Assembly (NCBI GenBank): GCA_017303715.1
Contig: JAFLBZ010000020.1
Coordinates: forward strand, 1-64,000
Source: Rhodothermia bacterium
Lineage (GTDB): Bacteria > Bacteroidota > Rhodothermia > Rhodothermales > UBA2364
Direction: 5' to 3'
DNA length: 64,000 nucleotides
Of the stretch, positions 42,082-61,700 are shown piece by piece (position 1 is the first letter of the stretch; the number at the start of each line of letters is the position of its first letter). Both the position numbers and the translations under genes were made by a program. The notes beneath the pieces were generated by a model. It did not search any database. It saw nothing but the letters and a program-made list of their open reading frames with translations, and was not told where the DNA came from.

Positions 42082-44067
42082 TTAAGGTGCTTGAAATACA
42101 ATCTTCGCTTTTGTCCCAGCTTCACTACTTTCAATTGTAAATATCCCCTCCAATTGACGAACCAGCCCTCTAACAAGGTTAATGCCAAGCGAGTTACGGC
42201 TATTGAGATTGATTTCTCCCGATATCCCTACTCCATTATCAGCAACCATTAAATGATATTGATGATCCACTTTCTTGAATGAAATATCAATTTCTCCTAT
42301 TTTTTTGTTAACGAAGGCATATTTATAACAATTCGTTATCAGTTCATTAACAATAAGACCCATTGGAATGGCCGTATCAATACTTAGTTTAGATTCATCA
42401 ATATCTACTTTCACTTCAATAGTTTGGTTTTCAGGTTTGTATGAACGTTCAATATTGCTAATCAATGTAACTATGAAGTTTTTAATCCCAAGCGTGGATA
42501 AATCTTCTGACTGGTATAAATTTTGGTGAACCAAAGCGATTGAATAAACCCGATCTTGCCCTTCCTTCATCAGTTTTTTAGCCTGTTCGTCTTTCATATT
42601 CCGTGCCTGTTTTTCAAACAAACCTGAAATGATTTGAAGATTATTTTTTACGCGGTGATGAATCTCTTGCAAAAGGCGCTCTTTGTCGTGCAAGGAAGTT
42701 TCAAGTAATGTTTTTTGATGTGCTATAATTAAATTATCATTTTTAATTCTCCGAATAAACAAATAACCCAATAAAATAACGACAATCAATGTAGTTACTG
42801 CCAAGTTTTTTAATAAGCCTTCATGCCGGCTATTCTTTTGTACTGACTCAATTTGATTTTGATAGCGTTCTGCATCCACCCGCATTTCAATTTGCCAAAG
42901 TTTGCGTTTATCGTTTTGTTTGGCCAAGCTATCCTCCATTTTATTTGCCAATTTCAAGTATTTGAAGGCATTTTTATAATCATTTTTCAATTCGTAATAC
43001 TCCACATTATTGTAATAAAAGGGAAGGGTTTTAAAGTAGTTTCCGGGATCTTCAAACCGGATATGAGGTTGCAAATAAATTGCTCTTTCTAAATCTGCCT
43101 GGGCTTCTTCTAATTTTTTTAATCTAATTTTCAATTTTATGATTACTTGTAAAGCATCATATTCTGCTATGACTTGGGTGGTATTGTTCAAATCATCAAA
43201 GGACTTGTATAAGGAATACCCACGATTGGCATAAAAAGAGGCACGTGCTAAATTGTTTAATTCCATGTAGTAAGAAGCAATATCCAAAGAAGACAATCCC
43301 TGCCAATAAAGACTACGCCATTCCTTAACGTCTTGTGTTGGATTGACTTTGTAATTGACTTCATAAATAAGTCCGGCATAATGAATCGCACTTGAATATT
43401 CTTTCGATATCGCATATATCGCTTGGATAAGGTTAAGCGTAAGTGTATAAAAAATACTATGTATATTTTCGTTATACTTGATTGACAATTTCAAGCTTTC
43501 TAAAGATTTTTCATAATCGCCTAAGGTGTAAAATGTTCTCCCCATGCTATAAAGCATCCAATCAAGGTCGTAATAGTAGAATTTTTCAAACCCAAGAGAC
43601 CTCATCATAGACAAATATTTCAAGTACGAAGAGTATAGTTCTTGTTCAGACAGTTTATTGGTATTGAATTTATGCAATTCGAGTGAGAAATTAGCTGCAA
43701 TATATTCAACCATATACTCATTACTTCCTTGGCTTAGCTCTATTATTTTATGTAAACTTTCAATGATTTCATCTGATTTATATTGATAACCATTCCCAAC
43801 TTTACCTCTAAGATAGTGCCAATACATCATCAATGAAATATTGTTCTCGCGTTTAATTTCCTGATGAATTAGTTCATAAGTTTTTTTATTATAACTTAGA
43901 TAATTTTTAAGAAAACTCTTTTTTTCAGGTATCGTTTTTAACTTTTTATAATCCAAATAATTCACTGTAATAGATATAGTATTATCCTGTGCCATTATAT
44001 TTGAACAGATCGCAATCACAAAAAAGAGGGCAGTAATAACCCTTAGATTAAATATTGTTGTTTTCAT
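42082..44067 (-). CDS. TPR-containing sensor histidine kinase (HisKA_2 type)
   Basis: The protein has 661 aa. Residues 1-26 are a signal peptide. About 30-400 is a helical tetratricopeptide-like sensor region outside the cytoplasm (for example YTLGDYEKSLESLKLSIKYNE, EAQADLERAIYLQP). A single membrane helix is at about 420-437, then a short coiled coil. The HisKA_2 dimerisation and phosphotransfer motif is EIHHRVKNNLQIISGLF (His470/471). The ATPase domain has NELITNCYKYAF and VADNGVGI. The likely partner is the LytTR response regulator at 47880-48638, 3.8 kb away, because no other regulator is in the window and such kinases commonly pair with LytTR regulators. The gene is A+T-rich. The ligand is unknown. 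Confidence 0.9.
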   Translation of the reverse strand: MKTTIFNLRVITALFFVIAICSNIMAQDNTISITVNYLDYKKLKTIPEKKSFLKNYLSYNKKTYELIHQEIKRENNISLMMYWHYLRGKVGNGYQYKSDEIIESLHKIIELSQGSNEYMVEYIAANFSLELHKFNTNKLSEQELYSSYLKYLSMMRSLGFEKFYYYDLDWMLYSMGRTFYTLGDYEKSLESLKLSIKYNENIHSIFYTLTLNLIQAIYAISKEYSSAIHYAGLIYEVNYKVNPTQDVKEWRSLYWQGLSSLDIASYYMELNNLARASFYANRGYSLYKSFDDLNNTTQVIAEYDALQVIIKLKIRLKKLEEAQADLERAIYLQPHIRFEDPGNYFKTLPFYYNNVEYYELKNDYKNAFKYLKLANKMEDSLAKQNDKRKLWQIEMRVDAERYQNQIESVQKNSRHEGLLKNLAVTTLIVVILLGYLFIRRIKNDNLIIAHQKTLLETSLHDKERLLQEIHHRVKNNLQIISGLFEKQARNMKDEQAKKLMKEGQDRVYSIALVHQNLYQSEDLSTLGIKNFIVTLISNIERSYKPENQTIEVKVDIDESKLSIDTAIPMGLIVNELITNCYKYAFVNKKIGEIDISFKKVDHQYHLMVADNGVGISGEINLNSRNSLGINLVRGLVRQLEGIFTIESSEAGTKAKIVFQAP

Positions 44068-44156: not shown

Positions 44157-45272
44157 TTATTTGGGAAGAATGGTTCCATCTGCCTCAATCTTAGGCATCG
44201 TAGAAGGAAAGTCTAATTTTGACAACCGACGTAAGGTTGAGATTGCTGAATTGGACTTGTCTTTTATTAGCACCCCACGCCCAGCAAGTACATATGGGTG
44301 GATTTTCCCGGCCATAAATTTTCCATCGGCATCTATTTTCATCTCCAGCACCATGGTTTCTGCCGTTGCTCCAGCCAGTTGAAACCATCCATAGGTTGCG
44401 AAATTGCCCAATGAGTAGGCGATCAATCGGTCATTATACATTTCCATTCCACGTAAAACATGCGGGCCGTGGCCGAGTACCAAGTCTGCTCCAGCATCAA
44501 TTACGGTTTTAGCAAAGAGTGGGAGGTTTCCTCTTGCTTCGCCATAAAAGAGTTCGGTACGATTTGGAACGCGGGTATTTCCGGAACCTTCAGCACCACC
44601 ATGAAAGGAAACCACGATCAAATCTGCTTTTTTATCGGCTTCCAAAACCAACTGCCGTGCCGCATCCAATTCATTCACATTGGGTGCGACATTGTTGTGA
44701 GCAAAGCCAAGAAAAGCGATTTTTTTTCCTTGGGTCGTAAGATACGTTGTCGCAAACGCCTGACGGTCACCGCCAGCGTGTTTTATCCCTACTTCCTCTA
44801 ATGTTTTTCGAGTGCTCAAACGTCCCGCTTCACCGAAATCATTTGCATGGTTATTGGCAACACTTAAAACGTCTAATCCAGCACGTTTTAAATGTTTTCC
44901 GTAGCGGGTGGGCATTTTAAACGCAAAACAATTACCACTATTTCCACATTTACTGGAAACGCCTTTGTCTATAAGAGGCCCTTCTAAGTTTGCAAAAGCA
45001 ATATCTGCTGCCTGAAAAAGTGGGGCTACCGGATCCAATAGATTTGCCCCGTCGTTTGGTGGCATTCGGGTTTCGTTGGGAAAGGTAGAACCCAGCATGA
45101 TGTCGCCAGCAGCGGCGATGGTAATAGGCTCAGTATTCTTGGGAATGATCGGCCTCGTATCCGAAGAGTCTTTTTTTTCTTCGGAACTGGGTTTTGTCGT
45201 TTCTGCACATCCTGATAAAATCATTACAAAAACCAAAATCCAAACAACCCGACCAACTGTAAACTGTATCAT
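44157..45272 (-). CDS. CapA-like metallophosphatase-fold lipoprotein
   Basis: The protein has 371 aa. The ATG at 45272 begins a lipoprotein signal (VWILVFVMILSGC, Cys22). The PGA_cap/CapA domain has the metallophosphatase motifs in order: AAGDIMLG, ANLEGPLID, SVANNHANDFGEAG, VSFHGG and LGHGPHVLRGMEMY, plus IAYSLGNFATYGWF. Relatives serve in poly-gamma-glutamate capsule synthesis, but many Bacteroidota homologues stand alone, as here with no capB or capC, and their substrate is not known. It would face the periplasm. Confidence 0.9.
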   Translation of the reverse strand: MIQFTVGRVVWILVFVMILSGCAETTKPSSEEKKDSSDTRPIIPKNTEPITIAAAGDIMLGSTFPNETRMPPNDGANLLDPVAPLFQAADIAFANLEGPLIDKGVSSKCGNSGNCFAFKMPTRYGKHLKRAGLDVLSVANNHANDFGEAGRLSTRKTLEEVGIKHAGGDRQAFATTYLTTQGKKIAFLGFAHNNVAPNVNELDAARQLVLEADKKADLIVVSFHGGAEGSGNTRVPNRTELFYGEARGNLPLFAKTVIDAGADLVLGHGPHVLRGMEMYNDRLIAYSLGNFATYGWFQLAGATAETMVLEMKIDADGKFMAGKIHPYVLAGRGVLIKDKSNSAISTLRRLSKLDFPSTMPKIEADGTILPK

Positions 45273-45441
45273 GTTTTGCGCAAAAAAATGAAAAGGGCGG
45301 TTGTGGCCAAGCACATCCTGAAAGAAAACCAGAATTGAGCTTAGTATATACCTTAATTTATGAAATTACAGCTTTTACCCTTCCGTTGCAAACCGAGAAT
45401 GCCAATACCAATACCTTATTGTGGTGGCGCAATGCCGTGCA

Positions 45442-45984
45442 TTACATGTGTTCATTAAAACTCACATTGGCTACAAATGGAATTTCTTTATTCCCATTGT
45501 TTATAAATTCGATCACCTGATCACCCGATTGGCTTGCGTGTTCACCACAAGGGCCATTTTCTGCAATATCGCGCACTTTACCACCAACTTTTATGGTGAC
45601 TTTTTCACCTAATTCCGTATTGGGCATAATGCAAGTCATAAATCCTTTTTCCACCCGTGCCACATAACTTTTGGTTTCACGAGCTTCGAGGATGATGTTC
45701 AAGTCGGTATCTGATGCACCTTTTTTCAAGGTTATACGCTCGACTTCCTTGCCGCCTGTGGTTTCTTCCGATTCAAGTTCCTCCGAAGTCGGGGTGTTGG
45801 CTGTGTTCTTGGTGGGAGCCTCTTCTTTTGGAAATGTTGTATTAGTAGCAGCACTTTCGGTTGTAGAAGTTGTATTAGTAGCAGTACTTTCGGTGGTTTT
45901 TGTCGGGTTGGACGTATTTTTGTTACAGCCTATGGCCACAGAGAAGACCATAAAGAGTGCAATTGTTTTTTTGGAGAGGTGCAT
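45442..45984 (-). CDS. Small lipoprotein with Thr-rich linker and PPC-like domain
   Basis: The protein has 180 aa. The lipobox is VFSVAIGC (Cys20). Residues 21-80 are a low-complexity Thr/Asn/Glu linker including two copies of a TTESAATNTT-like unit. The C-terminal about 100 residues begin RITLKKGASDTDLNIILEAR and align with the two small secreted proteins encoded just upstream (VKFARGASDAMLTRTIPAN, VKFAKGKSEKLVVVTLAAN). The pattern recalls beta-sandwich domains of the pre-peptidase C-terminal or g-type lysozyme-inhibitor (PliG) kind. This copy has two extra cysteines (TCIMPN, GPCGEH) that could form a disulfide. Function unknown. Confidence 0.75.
   Translation of the reverse strand: MHLSKKTIALFMVFSVAIGCNKNTSNPTKTTESTATNTTSTTESAATNTTFPKEEAPTKNTANTPTSEELESEETTGGKEVERITLKKGASDTDLNIILEARETKSYVARVEKGFMTCIMPNTELGEKVTIKVGGKVRDIAENGPCGEHASQSGDQVIEFINNGNKEIPFVANVSFNEHM
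45836..45894 (-). repeat. 33-bp in-frame tandem duplication
   Basis: GTTGTATTAGTAGCAG-C/T-ACTTTCGGT occurs at 45836-45861 and 45869-45894 with one mismatch, within the Thr-rich linker of the lipoprotein gene. The near-identity implies a recent slippage duplication. Confidence 0.8.
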
Positions 45985-46025
45985 CGGTTTTTAGAATTAA
46001 ATTTATGATGTAAATAAAATAAGAA

Positions 46026-46066
46026 TTGGCGATTCATCATAAAATACCTGTATAAAAAATCGCCAA
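46026..46066 (-). terminator. Inverted repeat, possible terminator
   Basis: Arms TTGGCGATT (46026-46034) and AATCGCCAA (46058-46066) are perfect, with a 23-base A+T-rich loop, and are followed on the minus strand by CTTATTTTATTT. It lies 26 bp after the stop of the 127-aa gene and before the lipoprotein gene, so it may attenuate read-through. Confidence 0.55.
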
Positions 46067-46091
46067 ACGCTTTATGGAAACCGATCAACGC

Positions 46092-46475
46092 CTAATTGAT
46101 GTCTAAATACAAGGTCATTGTAATGGCTTTTCTGGAGGTATTTTTCACCTTCAGTTTGTGGTTGCCTGTATCTTGAATTTCATACTCATTGTGTTCTTCT
46201 GGGCCGCCGCTCCAGGTTACATCGGTGGTACGAGGCGGAACTAAGGAGGCAACAATATCACTGCCTTTAAAATCATATCCGATTGTAAAGCCCATTGTTT
46301 GTCCTGTTTTAGCACCAATGACAAAGGTAATTGAGCCATTGGCTGGAATCGTCCTCGTCAACATTGCATCCGAAGCACCTCTTGCAAATTTAACGGTTTC
46401 GGTTTTGTCCTTTTGTGCAAATGCAAAGCCAGCAAATATGAACATGATGGCTAAGAAAGATGAAATTTTTTTCAT
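46092..46475 (-). CDS. Small secreted PPC/PliG-like protein A
   Basis: The protein has 127 aa with a signal peptide (MKKISSFLAIMFIFAGFAFAQ). The mature part begins ETVKFARGASDAMLTRTIPA and has FVIGAKTGQTMGFTIGYDF and HKLKVKNTSRKAITMTLYL, a seven-strand beta-sandwich pattern. It is paralogous to its two neighbours (46521-46904 and the C-terminal half of 45442-45984). The FARGAS...GAKTGQTM pattern is like that of proteins annotated as inhibitors of g-type lysozyme, so defence of peptidoglycan or general surface binding is conceivable. That is inference. Confidence 0.75.
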   Translation of the reverse strand: MKKISSFLAIMFIFAGFAFAQKDKTETVKFARGASDAMLTRTIPANGSITFVIGAKTGQTMGFTIGYDFKGSDIVASLVPPRTTDVTWSGGPEEHNEYEIQDTGNHKLKVKNTSRKAITMTLYLDIN

Positions 46476-46520
46476 GATGTTTTTTATTTGTAGATGTAGG
46501 TTTTGTTATTTCTTTTTGCC

Positions 46521-46904
46521 TCAATAATGTTTGCCATTTCCAGCAAAAAAGTTGATGCGAAATGTCTTTTTGCTATTGGATGTATTTTGGACCCGAATCA
46601 AGTATTTTCCGGTTTCATTCGCCAAGACCCGCAATCCACCCGGTTCCTCTTCATGATCTGAAGCCAAACTTGGATTTTGCAAGGTGATGGCTACACTTTC
46701 CGAGGTACTACCTTGCGCACCAACGATGATGGCTTGGCCCCCACGTACTTCAATTGAATAGGTTTTGGAGGTATTTGCCGCTAAGGTTACGACCACCAAT
46801 TTTTCGCTTTTACCTTTGGCAAATTTGACCACTTCTTGGGCGTGGACTTGCGTTCCTATGAGGGTACTTGCCCAAAACAAGAACAGGAAAAAGAGTTTTT
46901 TCAT
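46521..46904 (-). CDS. Small secreted PPC/PliG-like protein B
   Basis: The protein has 127 aa from the ATG at 46904 (46910 is also possible). Both give the signal peptide KKLFFLFLFWASTLIGTQVHAQ; the longer reading frame would overlap the upstream gene. The mature part is EVVKFAKGKSEKLVVVTLAA, then YSIEVRGGQAIIVGAQGST and GKYLIRVQNTSNSKKTFRIN. It is a paralogue of the next two genes downstream, with 45 bp between its stop and the next start. No catalytic motif. Confidence 0.75.
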   Translation of the reverse strand: MKKLFFLFLFWASTLIGTQVHAQEVVKFAKGKSEKLVVVTLAANTSKTYSIEVRGGQAIIVGAQGSTSESVAITLQNPSLASDHEEEPGGLRVLANETGKYLIRVQNTSNSKKTFRINFFAGNGKHY

Positions 46905-46947
46905 GTGCATAAAATGGTAGTTAATAGTGTGAGAGAAATAATTTGGA

Positions 46948-47523
46948 TTAATGATCTGGATCACCGTATTGGTCGGCCTCCCCTTCTTTCCACGTTCCAG
47001 TAGCAGAGATAGGAAGTGGGGTTACTTGTTGCCAAGGCTTTTCCATTTTTTGCGAACGGGTAAATTTTTTTGTAGGACTAAGGGTGTAATCATTTACCGT
47101 TTCTATTAGTTCATTTGGGTTATTGTTATACTCAATAAAGTGGGTTTTTTGAACTTTGCCATCTTTACCTTTGAGGGTATGGAGGACATTGTGGCCATAT
47201 TCACTTTGTGACGTTTCAACAACCATTGTGGCGTCATCTTTGGTGTATGTAACGGACTCCATCACGGTATCCCCTTCATTGTCCATAATTTGGGGTGCTG
47301 TGGCTGTCCATGTAGCAAGGTCGTAACGTCCAAAGTGTTCAAAATTAATTTGGGGACTATTAAAAGGAGGGGGGGTGTTTTCCGGATCACTTGCCTCCTT
47401 TTTATCGGTGTTTTCTGGTACTGGTGCCGGATTATTCTCCTTATTTCCACAAGCAGAAAACAAAAAACTTCCCAATGCTAAAATCCAAACAAATTTGGAT
47501 GTAGGGTAAGAACTAAATTTCAT
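46948..47523 (-). CDS. Small lipoprotein of unknown function
   Basis: The protein has 191 aa. The ATG at 47523 starts a lipoprotein signal (FVWILALGSFLFSAC, Cys25). A Pro/Asn/Glu-rich linker follows, then a domain with INFEHFGRYDLATWTATAP and regularly spaced strands (ESVTYTKDDATMVVETSQSE, KTHFIEYNNNPNELIETVND). I do not recognise it. It is the first gene of a four-gene minus-strand run of secreted products, divergent from the LytTR regulator. Two LytTR-type repeat pairs lie in the shared 356-bp gap, so it is a probable target. Confidence 0.7.
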   Translation of the reverse strand: MKFSSYPTSKFVWILALGSFLFSACGNKENNPAPVPENTDKKEASDPENTPPPFNSPQINFEHFGRYDLATWTATAPQIMDNEGDTVMESVTYTKDDATMVVETSQSEYGHNVLHTLKGKDGKVQKTHFIEYNNNPNELIETVNDYTLSPTKKFTRSQKMEKPWQQVTPLPISATGTWKEGEADQYGDPDH

Positions 47524-47682
47524 CGTTTTAAATAATTTATTGCGTTTTAGCAATCAAAAAGTAGATATTGGTGCATCTATTTTCCGAGTTTATGCAGTCA
47601 ACGTTGAATGTGGAATTATGATAATTTGTAATTTGATGTTTATAAAAGCTATTGCAACCATGATGCACATCGCAAGTACTTT

Positions 47683-47712
47683 GGGACGAAAACAAAGTAT
47701 GGAGGGACGAAA
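47683..47712 (+). promoter_or_regulatory. Putative LytTR binding site 1
   Basis: GGGACGAAA occurs at 47683-47691 and 47704-47712, exactly 21 bp apart, two helical turns. LytTR-domain regulators typically bind pairs of 9-bp direct repeats with 21-bp periodicity. The site is 168 bp upstream of the LytTR gene and 160 bp upstream of the divergent lipoprotein gene. Confidence 0.65.
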
Positions 47713-47737
47713 GAACAGCACGTATTTTATCGTTTCT

Positions 47738-47767
47738 GCTCATCCCTTGAAAAGCCCATTTCGTCCC
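47738..47767 (-). promoter_or_regulatory. Putative LytTR binding site 2
   Basis: On the minus strand GGGACGAAA (47767-47759) and GGGATGAGC (47746-47738) are 21 bp apart. The intervening sequence CTTTTCAA is shared with the site at 50865-50893, so the two are copies of one about 29-bp element. Confidence 0.65.
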
Positions 47768-47879
47768 AACAAACTTGATTATAATGAGCTTTATAAGTAT
47801 TATGTGTTTAAAAATATAAAAAAGGCAATCTTAAAAAATGTTTCTCCATGAGATAAAGCAGCTAAAATTTAGGCTATAA

Positions 47880-48638
47880 ATGACGATGAACCAAAAAAAA
47901 CGTATCCTTATTGTAGAAGACGAGTTCATTACTTTAGATATGCTAAGGGATGTTCTGGAATCTGCTGGATATGAAATCTCAGGGGACGCCATGCGTGCTG
48001 AAGAAGCAATAGAAATTCTTGAACGTTTCGAGACCGATATTGCCGTATTGGATATAAACCTCAAAGGGGGGAAAAATGGTATTTGGCTTGCTGAACAAAT
48101 CCGAAAACACTATCATATACCCTTTATCTTCCTAACAGCCAATAGTGATAGTACAACCGTAGAGCGAGCTTCTAACACCAATCCTTACGGCTACCTTGTA
48201 AAACCATTTACAAAGGCAGATGTTTTTACCGCCATCGAAGTTGCCCTAAAAAACCATCAGAAAGAGGTTAACCCCTTAGAAATTACAGCATACGATAAAT
48301 CCATTCATGGTACATTGTTAATCAGTCAGCACTTTTTTATAAAAGACAACACCTCTTATAAAAAGATAAAGATTTCCGATATTACATACATTCAGTCTTT
48401 TAAAAATTATTTAGAACTATATCTTACAAGTGGCAGAATTTTGGTGCGTACAACCCTGCAAAAAATGCTTGAAATGTTGCCTTCGGAGTCTTTTAAACAG
48501 GTTCACCGTTCTTTTATTGTTAACATCCGCTTTGTGGAAGAAATCAACCCCAACAGCATTTCTATAGGCGAACACCACATTCCCATCAGCAAAAGTTATC
48601 GGGAAGCGTTTATTGAGCAATTTAAATTCTTCGAGTAA
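47880..48638 (+). CDS. LytTR-family response regulator
   Basis: The protein has 252 aa. The receiver domain (about 6-122) has acidic residues E13/D14, phospho-acceptor Asp58 in AVLDINLKGG, a FLTAN motif and LVKPF. The LytTR DNA-binding domain (about 150-250) has ISDITYIQSFKNYLELYLTS, LQKMLEMLP and VHRSFIVNIRFVEEI. It is probably phosphorylated by the HisKA_2 kinase at 42082-44067. Repeat pairs matching a LytTR layout lie in its own upstream region and upstream of the outer-membrane/giant-protein genes. Confidence 0.95.
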   Translation: MTMNQKKRILIVEDEFITLDMLRDVLESAGYEISGDAMRAEEAIEILERFETDIAVLDINLKGGKNGIWLAEQIRKHYHIPFIFLTANSDSTTVERASNTNPYGYLVKPFTKADVFTAIEVALKNHQKEVNPLEITAYDKSIHGTLLISQHFFIKDNTSYKKIKISDITYIQSFKNYLELYLTSGRILVRTTLQKMLEMLPSESFKQVHRSFIVNIRFVEEINPNSISIGEHHIPISKSYREAFIEQFKFFE

Positions 48639-48653
48639 GGTTTGGCCCCAATA

Positions 48654-50549
48654 TTATGGACGTAGATGAAGCAATTTATATTGCCACATTGCTTGGTTTG
48701 TGGAGAGGCGAATCAGGTAGATGCCAGGCGGAAGACGATCAGTTGGTGTCCAAAGGTGTTCATGCGTTCCTGCAGGAAATTGACCCTCAAGCAGGTTTTG
48801 CAGATGCCTCCCCGTAAGGTCATAAACCGAAATCTGCACAGGACTTCCGTTATCAAGGCTAAATCTGATGGTTGTAGCACCAGATGTCGGATTTGGAAAA
48901 GCAAAAAAAGTATTGGAAATGCTGTTTTGGGGTTTTTCCTTGTGGGTGTTTACCAAAACATCTGGCGATTTCCTGCGGTTAATCATGACCATTGCTTCAC
49001 CAGCAACAAGCGTACTTTCAGATGCTTCACCTTTTTCTAAGCGAATAACAGTACGTTCTCCTTTTTCTAAAAACACGGTTCCAATTTTTTGCCAACCTTT
49101 TACGCCAAAATCGGTTTGGTCAAACGCTTTCACCACCTGCTCATGTGCGCCTTTAAGGCTAAAAAGGGCTTTTCTGCTTTGGTTCGTCTGGGGTGTTTGA
49201 TGGACAAAAACATCGAACCATGCCGTAAATGGGATTCTGAAGATGTAATCAAGTTGCGCATTCGTGGAAATGGAGCCAAAAAGGGCCTTGTTTTTGTACC
49301 CTGTCGTGGTTAATGGTTGCCAATTTCCGCTCAGGGGTTTTAGGGGTTCAGGGAAGGTGGCTGGAGGGCGGAACACCACTCCGCCCCTTGCTGGAACGAG
49401 TGCGGGTTTGTTGTAAGCGGTTTTTTGGAGCAAATTTCCAAGAAGATTGTTTTGTGCCCGTAGCCCTTCGTAAAAGAAAAATACTTCTCCTTGAACTCCT
49501 CTTGCCCGATTTGCTTCGATGGTTTTCGTGAGAAATTCTGTGGATATTAGATATGAGCCTACCTTCATAAGGACACCTGCATAATATCCATTGGGTGCAT
49601 CTGGGTAATGTGGTAGCGAAAGATTAAGTTCCTTCACATAGTCTGTTATATTGTATCGGTAGAGTTGGGGAATGATCTCATCAACGATGCCATTTTTCAT
49701 CCAAGTTGCGGAGTCTTGGAGGTACTCCATATATGACCACGGAAATAAACTGGGGCTTGCCGCAACCGTGAGGTAAGCACCGTGCTTTTTGACCGCCACA
49801 CGCACACGCTGGAACCAATCGTTCAGTTTATCGGCACGCCAACGTAACCACGTCGGGTCTTTTGGATCATCCGGAGGACTATTTCCGCCGTGTTCTTTCT
49901 GGTACAATGAGACGGTAAAAGGCTCGTAACCACCTTCATAGGGCATCGCGGGAATACGATCGGAGTACTCTACACCCTCTACATCATAAGTAGAAACGAT
50001 TTCTTCCGTCATTTCAAGCAATAAGTTTTGCGGCCCCGAATGAATGTTGCTCATCCAATCGAAGCCATTTTTTACCACCAATTTGCCACTTTTGTCATGC
50101 AAGGCCCAGTCTGGGTATTTTTGCAAAATATGTCCGCCATTTTGTGTATATGAAGTAGAAAATCCCATCTCGAACCAAGGCAAAACCTCCATCCCATTGC
50201 GATGCGCTTCAATGATAATGCGTTCCAAAACATCGCGGCCTTCAAATCGTGGGTGGATTTTGGTGCCAAAATACTTTTCAAAAACAGCACTTGGGTAGAG
50301 TGGGTAATCTCCATTGGCACTATTGGCGTTCCACACAACGGGTACAACGGTATTGACACCAATTGAAGCTAAATAATCCATAGCTTCGGCAATTCGATCA
50401 TCGTCAAACATTACCTGACTGTCCACATTTGTGATCTTTACGGCACGTAATTCACTCTGCAGTTGCGCCAGAGCGATTCCGTTCCCCAAAAACAGGAGTA
50501 GCAAGCACCCAATAAAGGTGTGTTGGAAAATTTTACGTGCTTTTATCAT
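48654..50549 (-). CDS. GHL10/DUF187-family glycosidase-like protein, T9SS-secreted
   Basis: The protein has 631 aa with a signal peptide (FIGCLLLLFLGNGIALAQ). About 32-385 is a TIM barrel of the GHL10 (DUF187) family: ELRAVKITNVDSQVMFDDD, LASIGVNTVVPVVWN, AHRNGMEVLPWFEMGFSTSY, VEGVEYSDR and FFYEGLRAQNN. A beta-rich domain (about 400-525) follows, resembling a golvesin/FN3-like module in GHL10 proteins. Residues about 545-631 are a T9SS sorting domain (AFPNPTSGATTIRFSLDNGS). Family members cut peptidoglycan-like or other glycans; the substrate here is unknown. It is convergent with the response-regulator gene (15 bp apart). Confidence 0.88.
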   Translation of the reverse strand: MIKARKIFQHTFIGCLLLLFLGNGIALAQLQSELRAVKITNVDSQVMFDDDRIAEAMDYLASIGVNTVVPVVWNANSANGDYPLYPSAVFEKYFGTKIHPRFEGRDVLERIIIEAHRNGMEVLPWFEMGFSTSYTQNGGHILQKYPDWALHDKSGKLVVKNGFDWMSNIHSGPQNLLLEMTEEIVSTYDVEGVEYSDRIPAMPYEGGYEPFTVSLYQKEHGGNSPPDDPKDPTWLRWRADKLNDWFQRVRVAVKKHGAYLTVAASPSLFPWSYMEYLQDSATWMKNGIVDEIIPQLYRYNITDYVKELNLSLPHYPDAPNGYYAGVLMKVGSYLISTEFLTKTIEANRARGVQGEVFFFYEGLRAQNNLLGNLLQKTAYNKPALVPARGGVVFRPPATFPEPLKPLSGNWQPLTTTGYKNKALFGSISTNAQLDYIFRIPFTAWFDVFVHQTPQTNQSRKALFSLKGAHEQVVKAFDQTDFGVKGWQKIGTVFLEKGERTVIRLEKGEASESTLVAGEAMVMINRRKSPDVLVNTHKEKPQNSISNTFFAFPNPTSGATTIRFSLDNGSPVQISVYDLTGRHLQNLLEGQFPAGTHEHLWTPTDRLPPGIYLIRLSTNQAMWQYKLLHLRP

Positions 50550-51058
50550 ACGAAAAAGGTGTATTTCGGGGTAATGAAACGATCATCATAATGAAGGCTC
50601 AAATTTTACACAGCCAACAAGATAATAGAACTACACGGGCTTGCTCATCGTAACAATTTACAACAAATCAGGGTCATGCACCTACCAACATGCACTTTAA
50701 ACCAAAAGCGCCCCCCAACCTACCGAGGTTTTAAAAAACCAAAGAGATTGCGTAAGAGAAAGGAAATAGACCAATTTGAAGCCACATATTTCTTCAACAG
50801 CAACATTGGCTACCTAAGACCTCACGTTTATTTATTGCTTAAATAATAAGCATAGAAACTTTTATTCGTCCCTTGAAAAGCCGACTTCGTCCCAAAGGCT
50901 TTGACATATTCCCCGTCTTACGATAGTTTGAGAACTTCGAGGGATATATTCCACCTTATAAAAGGCTGTTTTGTTCAAAAATACAGGACAACTCCAGAAT
51001 GCCCTACTCTTAATAGCCTGTGAACGCAACATCTTTTATAAACAATGACCTAAGAACA
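50550..51058. promoter_or_regulatory. Divergent intergenic region
   Basis: This 509-bp gap between the GHL10 gene and the outer-membrane barrel gene has no credible reading frame. It carries one LytTR-type repeat pair at 50865-50893, closer to the barrel gene. Confidence 0.5.
50865..50893 (-). promoter_or_regulatory. Putative LytTR binding site 3
   Basis: TTCGTCCC at 50865-50872 and again at 50886-50893, 21 bp apart; on the minus strand this reads GGGACGAA twice. The core CTTGAAAAGCC between them is identical to that of site 2. It is 166 bp upstream of the barrel-protein start at 51059, which suggests that the LytTR regulator controls the barrel/giant-protein transcript. Confidence 0.65.
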
Positions 51059-52771
51059 ATGAAACCCATTCTCTTGGGCGCCATTTTTGGCTTGGCGCTA
51101 TTGAGTACAGCGGTATTGTCTGCGCAAACCGCCTCAAACAATTCTCCGGACGTCAAAAAACAACCAGCTTTAGTGCGACTTTCTGGCTCCTTAAGGTTGA
51201 TGGGCGATTTTTTTCAGACAACACGTCAGCGCCAAACAACACCAGATTTAAAAGGTAGGATACATTCAGATTTGGCCCTCCATCTGGGGAAAGTACAACT
51301 CCAGACGAATATTTTATACTCCAGCGAGCAGAACCGATTTCAGGAGTCGCTGAATCAATTAGGGCTTAGAGGGCGATGGCGTGGCTTGTCGTTTTCGGTT
51401 GGAGACCACTATCCCATGCTCTCTACCTTTAGCTTAAATGGTATAAAGGTACAAGGTGCTTCTGCACAAATAGATTTGGGCGGCTTGTTCATTTCTGGAA
51501 GTTGGGGGAACAATGGTATTGGCAAACAGAAGGATTTGGCAGATTTAGGAAAATATGTGGCTTATACACAACAAATACGGGCAGTACGGCTTGGTATCGG
51601 CAAGCCAGACGGTAACCATTTGCACGTGGTTGTTTTTTCGGCGAACGATGATTCGACCTCAATAACGGGACGATTTCAAGGCGTAAAGCCACAACAAAAC
51701 ATTAGCCTCTCTACGTCATCCGCTATAAAATTGTTTAAAGGCGCTGTACAGTTAAATGGTGAGGCAACGGGTACTGCATTTAATCCCAATCAATTTGGAT
51801 CTAAAGTTGAAGTGTCCACATTTGCCCAGGAGCAAGGCGTTCCGGAAAAGGTGGTGAGCGCACTCACTAAGTTTTTTTCGCCGACTGTGGGTACAGAACT
51901 CGGTTATGCACTCAAAGGTGACGCCCGAATACAACTGCCAGTGGTCGGACTTAATGGGTCGGCACGTTATCTTGCGCCCGGTTTTACAGCACTTGGCGCA
52001 CCCGGCATGGTTTCGGATGTTTTTGATTGGTCGGGTGGTGCGAATATCATGTTGGGCAAAGGCAAATTTATCGCTAGTGGTTCTTATGGTCTTAACCGTA
52101 ATAACTTGTCCGCTCTTTTACTAAGTACAATTCGGCGTGAAGTCCTATCTGCAAATATCCAGATACAACCCATTGCCTCCGTCGCTATTGTAGGTGGTTA
52201 CCAGCGGATGGTCAGCACTTCTCAGAGTGATGTACAGGCCAGTTATTCACAGATGTTTACAAGTTGGAACCTCAGCCCAACCTTTAGTCTAACGCGTCCC
52301 AGCGGAAATCTACACAGCCTGTCACTTAATTTTATTTTGAATGACTTTGGTGCGCCCACCTTGGCCCAACAAGGTTCTTCTAACTTTCGGAATATGGGCG
52401 GCATGGCTTCGGTGAACAGTTCCTTGGGTAAGGGGCTAACCTTATTGGCTTCGGGAACCTACATGAAGGATTCTTCTGCTTTTTCTGATGGCATTACACA
52501 AGGGGTACAGCTTGGCCTTAATAAGCCTTTGATGCATAAAAAACTCCGCATAAGCCTTCTTGGCAGTTACGACCTTAGCCGTTTTGAGCTTTCTGATGCT
52601 ACGCCTTCAACAGAGACCGTTAGGTACGCGGCACGCCTCAACACCACTTGGAAAATCACCCCAAAAGATGTCTTGCAATTTGGCACAACCGCCTCGTTGA
52701 TACAAGCTGATCCACAAGTTGCTCGTATCCGAGAAATGCGGGGTAATGCCGCCTATATCCGAACTTTCTGA
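51059..52771 (+). CDS. Outer-membrane beta-barrel protein, unknown function
   Basis: The protein has 570 aa. I chose the ATG at 51059 (MKPILLGAIFGLALLSTAVLSAQ, a clean signal peptide) rather than the GTG at 51020. The chain is a long series of amphipathic strands with Gly/aromatic turns (GLSFSVGDHYPMLSTFSLNG, IMLGKGKFIASGSYGLN, LTLLASGTYMKDSSAF) and ends in Phe (AAYIRTF), the usual barrel C-terminus. The LNGIKVQGA segment resembles outer-membrane proteins encoded beside very large secreted Bacteroidota proteins. It ends 21 bp before the 3708-aa gene, so the two are almost certainly cotranscribed and may work together at the surface. Confidence 0.8.
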   Translation: MKPILLGAIFGLALLSTAVLSAQTASNNSPDVKKQPALVRLSGSLRLMGDFFQTTRQRQTTPDLKGRIHSDLALHLGKVQLQTNILYSSEQNRFQESLNQLGLRGRWRGLSFSVGDHYPMLSTFSLNGIKVQGASAQIDLGGLFISGSWGNNGIGKQKDLADLGKYVAYTQQIRAVRLGIGKPDGNHLHVVVFSANDDSTSITGRFQGVKPQQNISLSTSSAIKLFKGAVQLNGEATGTAFNPNQFGSKVEVSTFAQEQGVPEKVVSALTKFFSPTVGTELGYALKGDARIQLPVVGLNGSARYLAPGFTALGAPGMVSDVFDWSGGANIMLGKGKFIASGSYGLNRNNLSALLLSTIRREVLSANIQIQPIASVAIVGGYQRMVSTSQSDVQASYSQMFTSWNLSPTFSLTRPSGNLHSLSLNFILNDFGAPTLAQQGSSNFRNMGGMASVNSSLGKGLTLLASGTYMKDSSAFSDGITQGVQLGLNKPLMHKKLRISLLGSYDLSRFELSDATPSTETVRYAARLNTTWKITPKDVLQFGTTASLIQADPQVARIREMRGNAAYIRTF

Positions 52772-52792
52772 CATCCCCAATTGTTGTCTGAT

Positions 52793-55700
52793 ATGCGTAA
52801 ACTCTTTGCTTTTCTAACCTTTTGGTTATTGGCTTTTAATGCTGTGCAAGCACAGTGGTCATTAACCCTCTCCGGTATCCCATATGTGGCTCCGCCAAAC
52901 CTGACGCGAGACATGATAGATGGATACCGCATGACCGGACGGGTCAACTTGGTGTATGGGCAAACAACGCCAGCAACTGTCCAATTCCACTTGGCAGTTT
53001 ATACCAATTACACCAAACTTTCTCCGGTCAATGGTGCTGCACCCGGTTTAGGGTCAGTTCTTTCTACCATCCAAACACAGACCGGAAGTTCTGTAAACAA
53101 ACTCATTGGACTTGCCAGTTCCGACCCAGTAACCCTTACTGGGCCACTCAACTCCAGTCAGACGTTTGAGACATTTTGGGAAACATATAACTTCAGTGCT
53201 TCTTATACCCCTGATTTGGATTCCAAACTCTCCTCCGGCCAGATTATGGAAGGTACCCATGCGGTGTATATGTGGGTTACAGAAGGTGGAGGCGCACCTT
53301 TAGCCTACGACGGTAGAATCTACACCGTAAGTTCTCCTTCTGCGCCAAGGCTATTATATCCTACGGATGGACAAACTTTGGCCTCTAAAACCACGCCCGA
53401 TTTTCGTTGGGCACCGGTTTCTGCATCCTACCCCATTTCCTCGGTCTTTTACCGCCTCCGAATAGTTGAAGTTCTCACAGGACAATCTGCAGTTGTGGCC
53501 ATGCGGTCTAATGCAGTTTATTATGAAGCTACCACTCGCAATTTAACCCAGCATCGGTATGACCTCACCCAACCAGAATTATTGCCAAGCCGTACTTATG
53601 CTTGGCAAGTTGCATCCGTTGATGCCGAAGGAGAACCACTCTCGTCCACGTATGAAAGTGAGGTTTTTTCTTTTATCACACCCGAGGACGGCGTCTCGGT
53701 TCCACCCATAATTCCAGATCCGCCACCTGTAAAAGCGAGTATTACGCTAAATAATGCCTTACCAACGGCTTTTAATCAAATTGCGGCCACGCCTTTGGGC
53801 AATAACTTTGGGGCAAAAGTCAGTCCTTTGGCCGCATGGACGGATTTAACGTTACAGATTATCCGCATTACTGACCCTGATTTTGATGCTCAACGCCTCC
53901 GCAATCCAGATACTTTTGAAAGCTATTGGTTTGAAGGAAACAAAGCGGGGACTGGTTCGAATAGCCCATACCGTATTGAGGTTTTGGAGCAAACCCTAAG
54001 CTATAACAGCCAAGGCAACTTGATTTGGGGCAATTTCAATTTGCCTAAAATGGACGTCCCTTCCTATGTCGTCTTTCGCTATACGGGCAAAAATGGCCTA
54101 CATGTCTCGGATGATTTCGAGGGCCAGAACCCATTCATCACGTCCGAAATTGGACTGGCGTATATACCAAGTGCCAACATACAAAGCATTCAGCCAAAGA
54201 TTGAGGTAATCCGTCCAACAACAGGAATAACCCTTCAAACAGAAGCAATGCAAAGCCTACTCTTTGAAGGCAAATTTAGCCCCAAAAGCATCAATACTGC
54301 ACAAGGCGAATGGCGCAATGCCAAGCTACAATTGGTGGCGATTACCTCGCCAGCAACCAATGGGGCAAGCATAAACAGCACGTCCGCATTTAATGATTTA
54401 GTGGCGCAGGCAACCAACAATGCAACCGGAATTCATTTACTCGAAACCCCCATTACCTTTGACGAGAACGGAACCGCCAGTATTCCAGAAATACCTTTAC
54501 CTGAAGCTGGACAAAATTACTGGGTTGTTTACCGTTTTATAGGTGAATTTGTACATGGGGAAGACTTTTTGACCATTCCCTCTAGAATCGGACAAATCGA
54601 GATACAAAAAACGCAACGAAGTCTTAGCTTGGCTGTGGAAGGCTTCTCTGCACGGGGCACACTTCGCCGGAAAACACAAGCCTTTAGTTTCAAAGCCACA
54701 CCAGCCAGTTTATTAACCGAAAACTACTTGGCACAAAGCAGCCTAAGTTTGGTCGGATGGTACAAAGAAGTTCAAGGTACAGACAGCACTGCAACTGCAC
54801 GGCGACGCGCCTTTAATGAGATAAGCAGCTTATTTGGTGGGCGAACCACCAATCCACAACTTCCCAACGGTTATACGGAATGGGTACAACACCTTACTGA
54901 TCCTAACAGTGGCATTGGAACGCTATCCCTGCCTTTTGACGTCGAAAAAGCATTGGTTGTGTATCGGCTAGCTTGGCATGTTGGGCTTGAAACCCTTTAT
55001 TCTGCTCCTATATATCTGTATTACGATGGTAGCTTATCTTATCTCGCCCCAGAAATTGTTTTAGACGATAATCCTGCTAGTGACCCAGTTGAGGTGAATG
55101 CAAGTAACGCGTTTACAACACTTTCTGGTTCCTTAACCCCGTTCAAGGCCAGCAACAATGATAGCCAAAAAGGGATATGGAAAAACCTACAAGTCGAGGT
55201 ACTCCAGATCACCGATGCCAAGATAAATCCCCAAACCCTAAGCGAGAACACTGAATTTGACCGTTATTTGGCTCAAGGTCAAAACAATAACCATCCAACC
55301 CTAAAGACGATCATTTTGCCTTTAGCTGCGCCCAACAGCAACCGTTTTTCAGGATCAGGCAGTTTCACCATGAATGCTACATCCGACTATCAGGTCGCCA
55401 TTCGCGTAACGGCAACGTTTGAAGTAGAAGTGGACGGTGTTCTGAGAAGTGAGAAGGTATATACGCCTATACAATGGCGGAATGTGAACGTAAAAGCGCC
55501 CCTTACGCTGGTGGTCGAGGGACATAAGCAAGGCGCAGAAATCAACGACCATTATCAAAACTTCACCTACGAAGGAGAGGGGCTGTCTAATCCAAACTTT
55601 GAAGGATGGTACAAAATCCTAACACCTGAAGAAAACACAGAAACCGCAAAGCAAACCCTAATCAATGGGTTAATAACGGCTTTAGATGCTAAACCTGCAC

Positions 55701-58700
55701 AGCCTATATTACCGTCAGGATTTACTCGTTGGGCGTTGGAGAGTTTTCAAGTCTTTTCGGATCGTACGGTGATGGGTGGAACGGTCACCTTGCCTAATGC
55801 GGTTTTAAAAGAAAATGCAATTTTGGTTTATCGCATTAAAGCGCTTCAACAAAGTACGGTCTATTCAAACCCGATTGTACTTTCACACAAACCCGTAAAT
55901 GCCCGCATTGAGGTTCTTTCTCCAAACCCGGCGATCTTGCTCCCCTTGAACGGTGGTGCCAAGGTAAGTTTTAAAGGAAAATTAGACCCAAGCACGGAGG
56001 GGGCTTGGCAAAATGCAAACTTGGTCTATTCAAAAATTTATGACAAAAACCTAAAACCGACAGAGATTAATACCCAAGATGATGCTGAGCGCATTTTCGG
56101 GTTAGCTTCTGATGGTAGTTTGCGTTTTCCGAAAAGACCAGATATCCAAAACATCGCCTTGTCTCCGAATGCCACTGGCGAGTTACAGGTCTCCGATGAA
56201 ACCTTTCCAGACATTGGGCAAGACTATTGGGTGATGTACCAATTTTATGGAGACTTTTCAAAAGGTTCAGCACCCGCGACTACTTTTTTTTCGCCGATTG
56301 GCAAGATTCAAATAAAGTCTAAAGGCTTTTTCAACCTAAATGTATTAGGCTATGCGCCGCGTTTGAAAACTTCTGCCAATACGTTAACCTATACCTTTGA
56401 TTATAACTTGGGTAGTTTAGGAGCAGAAAACTTTACCTTCCAATTAGAAGGTTTTTACAAAGAACTGCTTGCTCCCAATGAAACCACAGCGGAAAACAAA
56501 ACCACACTTTTCAACCAATTAACGACCGCGTTTGAAAACCAAACCACACCTACTGGATTTCAGACTTGGACCGAAGACTTGTCCAATCCCGCTGGAAAAA
56601 CTGGACAAATGAAGTTGCCCAGTGAGTGGTTAGAAAATGCCTTAGTCGGCTTTAGGCTCAAAGCCACAAGTGGATACTATACGTTTTATACCGAACCAGC
56701 CATTTTTGAATATCAACCTAAAGAACTCAAACCCCGGCTTAGCGTCACAGAGCCTATAAGTATGGGGATGCAAACCGCTACTGCCGGACCTGACTTCGTA
56801 AAGTTTACGGTCAAGCCAGAACCCGTTTTCCCTAATGAACAAGCAGATCTCAAAGGAAAATGGGAAAGCATAACTTTAGAAGTGGTGACTGTCTATGACC
56901 AAACCCTTCCCAGCAATACCATTAAATCCCAAGCCGATTTCGAGGCGTATTTAGCAAAAGGGAAAGGGTGGGGAGCATTTGACAAACAAGTTCTGGCGTA
57001 TGAAGAAATCCGCACACCAAGTCAGTATGCAGATTTTATGGAAAACGCCACCTTAAGTTATCCTGCGTATAAATTTGCCCGCTTAGGAACTGATTATTGG
57101 GTAGTACTACGTTTTAAAGGGGTTTTTGTTAAAAACATCAATGGTCTGCCACAACAAAGTACATGGTATTCAGATTTGGTGCATTACGAAGTGAAAGAAC
57201 CCGAAAATCCACCTAATAAGCCAGGGATAAACCTAAAATATCCTTCGGCCAAACCTGTAACCAAAGCCTCCGAAGAACCATTGGGTGACCATTTTGCGGC
57301 AAAGGTTAATCCCCTCACCGGTTGGAGCCAAATCCAAATGGAGGTCATATATTTGACGGATAAAAGCGTAAGCCCAAGCTCGCTCTTGGACTTAACCTAT
57401 TTCCAGTCGTATTTCTACCGCACAAATCAATCTGCAATCCTCAATGTTTCAAAAGATGCACAAGGCAACATCACATACTCAAACTTGGAGTTGCCAAATT
57501 TAGGAACCGATTATTATGCTATTTATCGGTATGTTGGACGTGGGAACGTACCATGTTGTTCGGACATTGGCATTGTATATGTACCAAAATCCACGCCTAA
57601 ACTTAAACCGGTTGCTTCGCTCACCAGTCATGGCAACGGCATAAATAACAGAACGTCTGGTACAAATGAATCGTTTACGGGGCAAATCACCCCTTATTTA
57701 CAAGGCAATACCGATAAGACCAAAGGAATTTGGCAAAATGTGAAGTTCCAGATGGTGACCTCTAAAAACTCTGACGCCCTCTTGGGTGAATTGACCCAAA
57801 CCAAAAAAGGAGTCGCATTTTATCAAGGAGCCTTTACCAAACTCGTCAACACGGCCGCAGATACGAAGTCGGGTTTAATTCTCATAGAGGTTGACGTCAA
57901 TCCAGATGCCACAGGCGGACTTTCCATCTCGCAATTCATGACCGAGCATGGTTATCAATATTCAGCCGTTGCCCGCTTTATTGGAACCTTCATCTCAGAG
58001 CGTGATGGTGAAGTCACCGAGCAAACCATTGCTACCACCCACACTGTATTTGATATTGCCACCAATGCCCGTCTTGGTATTTCGGTAGAAGGCTATACCC
58101 CCAATATGGTATTAGGCCAAAAAAACCAAGATTTCGAGATTAACTCGGTGGTATTAAATGAATTAAACAATGTACAAATACATATAGCTTATTACCCCAT
58201 GCCCGATAATGCCACGATGAGCATGTCGGTTGAACTTCGGGACTTAAAGTCGGCGGTTGAGGGCGTTGTGTATGGCAACGCGGCATTACCTACGCGATAC
58301 AAAACATGGACACAGCCCATTGTGGACTTTAAATCTGGAAAGGGTCGTATGGCATTTAGCGACTCTACTGTTTTCCGTGCAGCGTTTGCATATTGGGTTT
58401 CTGCAGACTTCAATGAAGTAAGTTTTAAGAGCAATCCCGTCTTTTTGGATTTGACGATTCCCCGTCCGGAACCAAAATATAATGTGGCACAAATCCAACC
58501 TAAAACAGACGAAATAAAAACTGTAGATGCGGGTAGTGTACAAACCTTCCGCATTAAAACCTCCCCTTGGGATGTTTATAACGACCAAAAAACAACGGAC
58601 AGATGGGATCGGGTAAGTATGCAGGTGGTCTATGTCTGGGATGATTACCCTACCAATGTCGTAACGACCCAAGAAGAGTTCAATAAACTCTTTAATGAAA

Positions 58701-61700
58701 AAGAAATCCGAGGCACTTCCCTGACTAAAATGCGCACGGAGGAAGTCAATGCACGATGGTTGTTAAATGGTGAATTAGAAGTCCCTTCGTATGCGTTCCA
58801 AGAAATTGGACGCGACTACTGGGTGGTGATTCGTTTTAGAGGGGTCTATCTTAAAGGGAGTAATGCCTTTGGAACGGGCAACCAAAATGAAGTCTTTAGC
58901 AAGCCAGTACATTTCAAAATCAAAACCAAGGCTACGTTTTCTGCGAGTATGAAGAACTACAAAAAGCGGATGGCGATTAATAAACGGGAACAGGTTTTTG
59001 AGTTTGAGGCAGATCCACCGAACCTCTTAAAAAATGTGGAATTGATTGGCTTGTATAAAAATTTGGCTCCAGAAGATACCAGCCAAACGGATGTCCTTAC
59101 CGCGTTTCGCAAAATGGACGATGCCTTTGATGAAATGGAAGAAGATGCGGACGAATCGCCGGACGGCTATCAATACTGGCAACAAACCATTCCCAACCTT
59201 GCCCTCAAGTCGGGAACCTTGAACTTTCCCGACGAAACAACCGAACGGGCCGTTATTGGCTTTGTATTAAGGGGCAATGTAAATGGCGCGGAAATCTATA
59301 CGGAACCTTTACTTTTGGATTACAACCTCCCTTCACCAAGTAACCGAATCTTTACCGTCAAAACGAAAGTAGAAGTAAAAGATGCCCAAAATGTCGTTAT
59401 CGCAAGCCCTGAATGGGATCAGATCAAACCGGAACTTCGCCTTAAAATTGGTCGGCAGACCAAAACCTTTAAGCCAAATTCTTTTAAGGACGGTAATTTG
59501 GTTTTTGCTTTCAAACTGCCTATTGAAGCACAACCAACCAATAAAGGTGCGACGCCATTGCCCTTTACCTTAGAAATAGATGGAGACGTCAACTACACGT
59601 CCGTAGAAGAGACCGGAACCTTAAGCAAGCGAAATGCAGATGTGCCAACCATCACGATCCAAGGAAGGAAGGCGGGTGAATACACGGTAGCAGGACTCGT
59701 TAAAGACTCCGACAGCGACCCCGTGCCGAATGTAGCGTTAAAAATTGCGGTGGATGGACTCAGTACGCCGCCTGCGGATGTAAAAACAGATGCGACGGGC
59801 AAGTTTAAGTTTACGGTTAAACTTCCAACGGCAAAAGTTCCAACAACCAGCAATTCGATTAACTTCACCATATTACCCGTTCTAACCACCACACAAAAGT
59901 TGCTCTATAAGCCAAGCAGTCAAAACGGGGCGTTGGACGGTCGAGACCAAACCAAGCTCTTAATTAAACTTAAGTCCTTGAATGCGTCGGTGATTGCGGG
60001 GACATTGGTATCCAAAGGGGCAAAAAAGCCTGTTCGTATGGCGGAAGTAGCCGTCTATGAAGCAAAAAACCCCAAACACCGCATAAAAAAAGTGATGACA
60101 GATGAGGATGGCCGTTTCTTGGCGGTTGGATTATTAGAGGGCGAATATGTCTTAAAGCTTGAAAAAACAGGCTATAAAACCATTGAAAAATTCCCACTTA
60201 GTGGCGCTGTTAAAGTGGAAACGGGCAAAAAATCGGACCTAAAGGAAGTTCAAATGGAGCTAAAGCCTCTGACGGTTAAAGTTTCCGTGCGTCCGAAAAA
60301 AGGGCCTCTTACCCAAGAACAAACGAATGTATATGTAATCAAAAAAACCGACCTCAACCAATATCAAGAATGGCGGGAGACCAATCCTTTAGCGCGTTTT
60401 GAAACCAGTGGGGTTAAAGTGGTGCAACAAAAACGTGCCAAATTAGACAATAAACCCGTTTCCTTCACCTTCAATGATGTGGACATCGAGCGAACACAAG
60501 ACTCCTACATCTTTATTTCGTCCACTTTAGACCTTAACGACGCTTTAGGAGAACAAACCACGCCGATGGACTCGGTCATCACCATTCGGCAAACAGCTTT
60601 TCCATCCATTTATCTAAAAGGAAAAGTCCTCAAACAAGGCAGTACCACCGGTTTGGCAGGTGTTCCCCTGAAACTCATCACAAAGCAAAATCCACCTAAA
60701 GTCTTTACGGCCAAAACGGATGAAAACGGCGCTTATACGTTCTGCTTGGGCGGTATGACGGCCATGGATTGTTCAGCTGCCATCCGAGATTATGGATTTA
60801 CGGTTGCCGTGGTTATTGCACCTAAAGTACTAACCAGTAAAGACCCCGCTCCGCCCGATAAAGCCTTGTACTCGTGGGATTCCCCAGATGTGGACTTTCC
60901 CACCGATGTCCCAGACTTCAGCGTGGATGCCAAATGGATTTCAGGCGGTGCTAACCCCACTACACCTTTACCTCGCCCCAACAGTAATACGGTTTGGAGT
61001 TCAGAAGAACCAGAACTTGTAGGTAAAGTCACCATTAAGGTACGCTCTTCCGGCCAAGCCGTTGCTGGTGCAAGTGTTGCTTTTGGGGACAACGAGGCTG
61101 AAACCAATGACCAAGGCGAAGCCGTCTTTGAAAAAGTTGAAGAAGACTCCTACGATCTGACCGTAACGGCCCCCGATGGCGCAAACTACGCTATCCAGCC
61201 AACCTCGATTCGGGTGACTTATTCGAGCCGTAGCAATCCCGTTTTTGAGATCACGCAAGAAGCCCAAACGGGCATGGAGGTCTCTGGGCAGGTTGTGGAC
61301 CAAGACAACAAGCCCGTTGCCAAGGCAAATGTATATGTAAAAGGAAATGCCCATATTGCCACCACCACCAAAGACGATGGAAGTTTTTCGCTTTCGGGCG
61401 TGGTGGGCGTGAAAGCGGGCGCTAAACTATTAGACCCTGTCTTGGTCGTGGATGGGGATGGTTATGGGCTAAATGAGCAAACCTTGACCTTTAAAGTTGG
61501 TGGGAGCCAATCGGATGTATTGTTCAAAGTGACCCGAGCCGAAATTACCGAAATTTACGGCTTCCGCGTCAAATATCGCACTGAAGACATCACCAAAACC
61601 ACAAACGGTTGGACAATCAAAGCTGGTTCATTGATCAATATTCCGTCCAATGCGCGGGTAAAGTTTGACGATGAATTAGAACTTCCGTTCAATAACCTGA

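Follow-up and report, generated by a model that had tools for sequence, protein, structure and literature searches.

Three direct repeats with 21-bp spacing, found in a 64,000-nt stretch of DNA (the window), are best read as operators from which the product of 47880–48638, a LytTR response regulator, would activate transcription at a position upstream of the promoter. We assign a probability of about 0.82 to this reading, which comprises autoactivation, a leftward gene run, a barrel operon and one unlinked target. According to it, a single response regulator very probably switches on, besides its own gene, a lipoprotein cluster that ends in the likely sensor kinase and a cluster encoding giant secreted surface proteins. 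The analysis of the sequence supports a compact LytTR regulon that is autoregulated and governs secreted proteins; within it, we infer the regulator as the binder, activation as the effect, the kinase at 42082–44067 as the partner and the extents of the operons.

A previous sequence-only reading of the window had described three repeats, all with exact 21-bp spacing. Two of them are perfect, namely site 1 (47683–47711, plus strand) and site 3 (50865–50893, minus strand), both of which are exact GGGACGAA-N13-GGGACGAA pairs. The remaining one, site 2 (47739–47767, minus strand), keeps the 21-bp register but is an imperfect GGGACGAA-N13-GGGATGAG pair, its second half carrying two mismatches. The window contains five exact GGGACGAA octamers, all within sites 1–3. 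When written toward the gene that it precedes, every site takes the form TTCGTCCC-N13-TTCGTCCC. Site 1 faces a leftward run of minus-strand genes, site 2 the LytTR gene and site 3 the barrel/giant-protein operon. The proposed link between the sites, the regulator and the barrel and giant-protein genes is supported, with the correction that a single transcription unit belongs to each site, namely the left operon, the regulator gene and the barrel/giant operon, respectively. The claim that sites 2 and 3 share a spacer core was also right, the 10-nt sequence GGCTTTTCAA being present in both in the home genome (G000), but this core is not kept in the congener G002. The repeats are direct, with half-sites of ~9 nt and the 21–22-bp period of LytTR operators (PMC4847170). 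The suggested match to such operators in length and period (PMC4847170, PMC6193735) was borne out, and it is accompanied by conservation in congeners and by a fixed promoter register.

The exact repeat is extremely rare. A scan of the 4.35-Mb home genome for GGGACGAA-N13-GGGACGAA returned two pairs, sites 1 and 3, both in the window, when ~0.0014 would be expected per genome from base composition; the motif is not scattered over the genome, which the earlier reading had named as grounds for rejecting it. With the spacer allowed to vary from 0 to 30 nt in the three congeneric genomes, six of the seven exact pairs had a spacer of 13 nt and one of 12 nt, and the reversed-pattern control, run over the same spacers in the three genomes of the genus, gave no pair. 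When up to three mismatches were permitted and the TTG promoter anchor described below was added to the pattern, only four sites were left in the home genome. Other home-genome matches with 2–3 mismatches, several of which fall in a repetitive coding-type stretch (C24), occurred mostly at control frequency and were gone once the promoter anchor was required, and outside the family, but within the order, matches were near chance. Tandem 21-nt repeats with GGGACGAA also occur at G091:C501:5079-5233 and G029:C3:190370-190629, apparently as 7-codon protein repeats; coding repeats of this kind are a pitfall for scans at a 21-bp period.

The sites stand in a constant relation to promoter-like elements. 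In 7 of the 10 sites, a number that none of 5000 permutations reached, a TTG starts exactly 15 nt past the start of the proximal half-site and 7 nt past the repeat; it is absent from two site-4 promoters. A TAnnTTT-like −7 box starts 37–39 nt past the proximal half-site start, with TA..TT at +37/38 in 6 of the 10 sites (0/2000). In the window, the putative −33 TTG of the LytTR promoter lies at 47775–47777 (plus strand), 7 nt past site 2, with a TATTAT −7-like box from 47798; that of the barrel promoter lies at 50901–50903 (plus strand), 7 nt past site 3, with a TAGTTTG box from 50924; and that of the leftward promoter lies at 47673–47675 (minus strand), 7 nt past site 1, with the −7-like box TAGCTTTT near 47651. 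The promoter consensus of Bacteroidetes consists of a −33 TTTG and a −7 TAnnTTTG, the −33 part of which was not found in F. johnsoniae (PMC7366714). The TTG and TA..TT are the putative counterparts of these two elements, and the repeat lies just upstream of the −35/−33 element of its targets. Because the TTG/TA..TT register is fixed and only four anchored sites are left, we place the site directly upstream of the promoter. This placement is that of a predicted activator on a Bacteroidota promoter; the characterised LytTR activator AgrA also binds directly upstream of its promoter (PMC4227749).

Conservation in congeners follows the half-sites. In G002 all three sites have perfect counterparts, and site 3 is perfect in G001 too, whose contigs break inside the regulator gene, so that sites 1 and 2 were compared with G002 only. 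The half-sites are kept while the spacers and the flanking intergenic DNA diverge. In a three-way alignment of the region upstream of the barrel gene, which is ~38% identical overall, the clearest conserved features are the two TTCGTCCC blocks and a TTTGA after them. The predicted regulon extends beyond the three sites initially noticed, since a fourth site, a one-mismatch pair, is present on another contig, one in each of the three genomes. The genes that directly follow it in G000 and G001 encode small secreted proteins that are homologous (~35–37% identical) and stand in unrelated gene contexts. As these targets were found from the motif and only afterwards recognised as one gene family, they provide independent support. 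A structure model of this remote target reached a pLDDT of 55, too poor for a structure search. In G002 the target of the fourth site (L179 ~8350-9150; G002:C53 near 69968) is a pseudogene remnant, with the repeat and promoter region nearly intact.

The gene at 47880–48638 (plus strand) encodes, as had been proposed, a LytTR response regulator, with Response_reg (PF00072, 2.1e-21) and LytTR (PF04397, 8.4e-19) Pfam domains, and is the predicted binder. Its ortholog in G002 is 79% identical, and the residues D14, D58, T86 and K108 are retained in an alignment with relatives. To the left of site 1, all on the minus strand, follow a lipoprotein-like secreted protein (46948–47553; 62–66% identical in congeners), two small proteins with signal peptides (46521–46964 and 46092–46475), a putative lipoprotein (45442–45984), a PGA_cap (CapA-like) protein (44157–45314; PF09587, 2.8e-53; 78–81% identical in congeners) and, as the last gene of the run, a TPR–HisKA_2–HATPase_c histidine kinase (42082–44067; PF07568, 8.9e-26). 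That the genes from site 1 to the kinase form one operon is assumed from their shared strand and short gaps. In G002 the leftward run (L124:9411-11546, against window 45442–47553) has a changed gene order and one extra gene, with site 1 still at its head. The PGA_cap protein has a 39% identical paralog (L122:2456-3571), the two lying one on each side of the cluster and being kept in congeners.

The kinase lies 4 kb from the regulator and is conserved in congeners, and since a homologous kinase is encoded within a few kb in 20 of the 22 loci with a related regulator, it is likely to be the cognate partner. The putative left operon, ending in this probable partner, would add to the regulon as first conceived. 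To the right of site 3, the first gene (51020–52771, plus strand; start probably 51062; 68–69% identical in congeners) encodes a protein that, from the appearance of its sequence, is probably an outer-membrane beta-barrel. It ends in ...YIRTF and had no Pfam or NCBIfam match, and its structure model (pLDDT 26) was too poor for a structure search. The co-directional gene that follows (52781–63919, plus strand) encodes a giant secreted protein of 3712 aa with CarboxypepD_reg repeats (PF13620, 2.3e-27), kept in G001 and G002. A GHL10 glycoside hydrolase gene with Golvesin_C-like and type IX secretion tail domains (48654–50549) lies between the regulator and site 3; it points away from the site-3 promoter and is probably not a direct target.

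Repeats of the same period accompany related regulators. Direct repeats offset by 21 nt were over-represented in the intergenic DNA of homolog loci (13, against ~3 per other offset), and the half-sites of several relatives have a core TTCnnMMCA, which was read from, and then counted in, the same loci. One locus (L041) carries TTCGTAACA repeats before the regulator and a second 21-nt pair before the giant secreted gene that follows it. TTCAGAACA repeats precede a secreted protein of >1684 aa adjoining the regulator (L255) and another of 1109 aa (L258), TTCACAACA repeats precede the kinase in L252 and L257, and in G386 two pairs 200 nt apart stand before a giant gene. In four genomes of flavobacterial type, a label inferred from group sizes and gene content, TTCACAACA pairs numbered 11–14, against 0–2 in the control. 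Among 24 genomes of that family, there were 8–14 pairs in the five with a syntenic regulator, whereas the remaining 19 had 0–4, close to the control. The predicted targets of the TTCACAACA pairs include several large signal-peptide proteins as well as a TPR protein and the kinase. The TA..TT box stands at the same 37–38 nt in 13 of 20 flavobacterial-type sites (0/2000), and these promoters share the geometry without the −33 TTG.

The idea that the TTCnnMMCA core is common to every homologous regulator was rejected, the motif not being seen at 20 more distant homolog loci kept as a hold-out set. The regulators of G304 and G175 are as similar to that of the window as are those of the positive genomes, yet lack TTCACAACA sites. 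Since the hold-out loci are without the core and these two genomes without TTCACAACA, half-site specificity appears to change between lineages. We give even odds to a more general formulation, in which a TPR-HisKA_2 kinase and a LytTR regulator form a recurrent Bacteroidota module that governs giant proteins, secreted or at the surface, via 21-bp repeats, with TTCnnMMCA-core half-sites 37–38 nt upstream of TAnnTTTG, lineage-specific half-site variants and regulons of small to medium size. Two further observations concern repeats of this kind. Downstream of repeat sites in L304, L310, L312, L314 and L316 (G265, G222), a long near-identical leader, TTTACATTGTAATTAAGTGATAGT..., is common to several flavobacterial-type promoters, which suggests that either the target family has been duplicated or the 5′ leader is conserved. 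At G449:C131:3153-3203 (L229), downstream of a rho-like gene, there are three tandem half-sites, TTCGTAAAG, TTCGTAAAA and TTGGTAAAA, at 21-nt steps.

The repeats could in principle be due to chance or be remnants of a small dispersed repeat element, and both the 10 nt of spacer shared by sites 2 and 3 in G000 and the origin of other 21-nt periods in 7-codon coding repeats (G091, G029) could be cited for this. With ~0.001 exact pairs expected per genome, a fixed promoter register, congeners that keep the sites as spacers and flanks diverge, and four sites that share no wider repeat unit, we regard such an origin as hardly credible. A weightier but still unlikely possibility is that the repeats are genuine operators of a different DNA-binding protein, a LytTR paralog or another regulator, which controls this LytTR gene and its neighbours. 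The genome has ~20 response-regulator matches, so another LytTR protein could bind, regulator genes are often targets themselves, and binding by the 47880–48638 product is a prediction. Nevertheless, a site adjoins the same regulator in G000 and G002, relatives of the regulator in other families come with 21-bp repeats of their own, located at the gene of the regulator, of the kinase or of a secreted protein nearby, and no 21-nt repeats were found upstream of 16 paralogs in three genomes; the 21-bp period, besides, fits LytTR binding (PMC4847170).

Slightly more probable, though again a minority reading, is that the regulator does bind the sites but represses the promoters or acts in a mixed way, given that a site so close to the −33 element could block the polymerase and that the direction of the effect is not readable from sequence. 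Against this, the sites lie upstream of, and not over, the −33/−7 elements in one fixed register, like those of characterised LytTR activators (PMC4227749, PMC6193735), and the flavobacterial-type promoters with the same geometry lack the −33 TTG, as expected of activator-dependent promoters.

For the preferred reading, activation by the 47880–48638 product, we propose that a phosphorylated dimer of the regulator most likely binds both TTCGTCCC half-sites, which, being 21 bp or two DNA turns apart, would lie on one helical face. With the proximal half-site 7 nt upstream of the −33 and 37–38 nt upstream of the −7, the bound dimer would recruit RNA polymerase and activate transcription. Site 2 would make the regulator autoactivating; site 1 would drive the divergent lipoprotein/PGA_cap run, perhaps through to the gene of the TPR-HisKA_2 kinase as the likely sensor; site 3 would drive the barrel-giant-fn3 operon, and the unlinked fourth site a small secreted protein. 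LytTR regulators are common in Bacteroidota, and the fixed distance to the −7 box offers a rule by which other genomes can be searched for such regulons. Because the sites and the promoter geometry are seen alongside the likely kinase and the targets, the regulons become immediately testable, and the one described here would link a so far uncharacterised two-component system to the giant secreted proteins.

Among known systems, PorX does not belong to the LytTR proteins and works by way of an ECF sigma factor, whereas here a LytTR regulator would use its own operators. The PorX/PorY–SigP system of P. gingivalis type IX secretion is alike in that a two-component system governs products that are secreted or at the surface in a member of the Bacteroidota (PMC4800418). 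In the LytTR regulatory systems (LRS) of S. mutans and in LRS-like Bacteroides operons, direct repeats with a 21–22-bp period stand 4–11 bp upstream of −35, and positive autoregulation has been inferred or shown (PMC6193735), features that the present system would share. LRS regulators are, however, without a phosphorylated receiver and are paired with a membrane inhibitor, and no inhibitor-like gene was found adjacent to our regulator; with a receiver domain and a candidate kinase instead, the system is not an LRS, and unlike in LRS the regulon would include secreted giant proteins. LytTR operators in general consist of two 9–11-nt repeats with 11–13-nt spacers and have no common sequence (PMC4847170). 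In open-licence papers we found no published use of the octamer GGGACGAA as an operator, its matches being to unrelated sequence only, nor any operator described for a Bacteroidota two-component system of LytTR type. The architecture is one known for LytTR regulators, and the motif and regulon are apparently undescribed. The closest likeness is to the group of AgrA, YpdB, ComE and VirR, which also combine REC and LytTR domains with two ~9-nt direct repeats, 11–13-nt spacers and a site just upstream of the promoter (PMC4847170, PMC4227749). From this group the present system differs in its half-site, TTCGTCCC(A), in its Bacteroidota −33/−7 promoter and in its candidate partner, a HisKA_2 kinase with TPR in place of one of the LytS/AgrC type.
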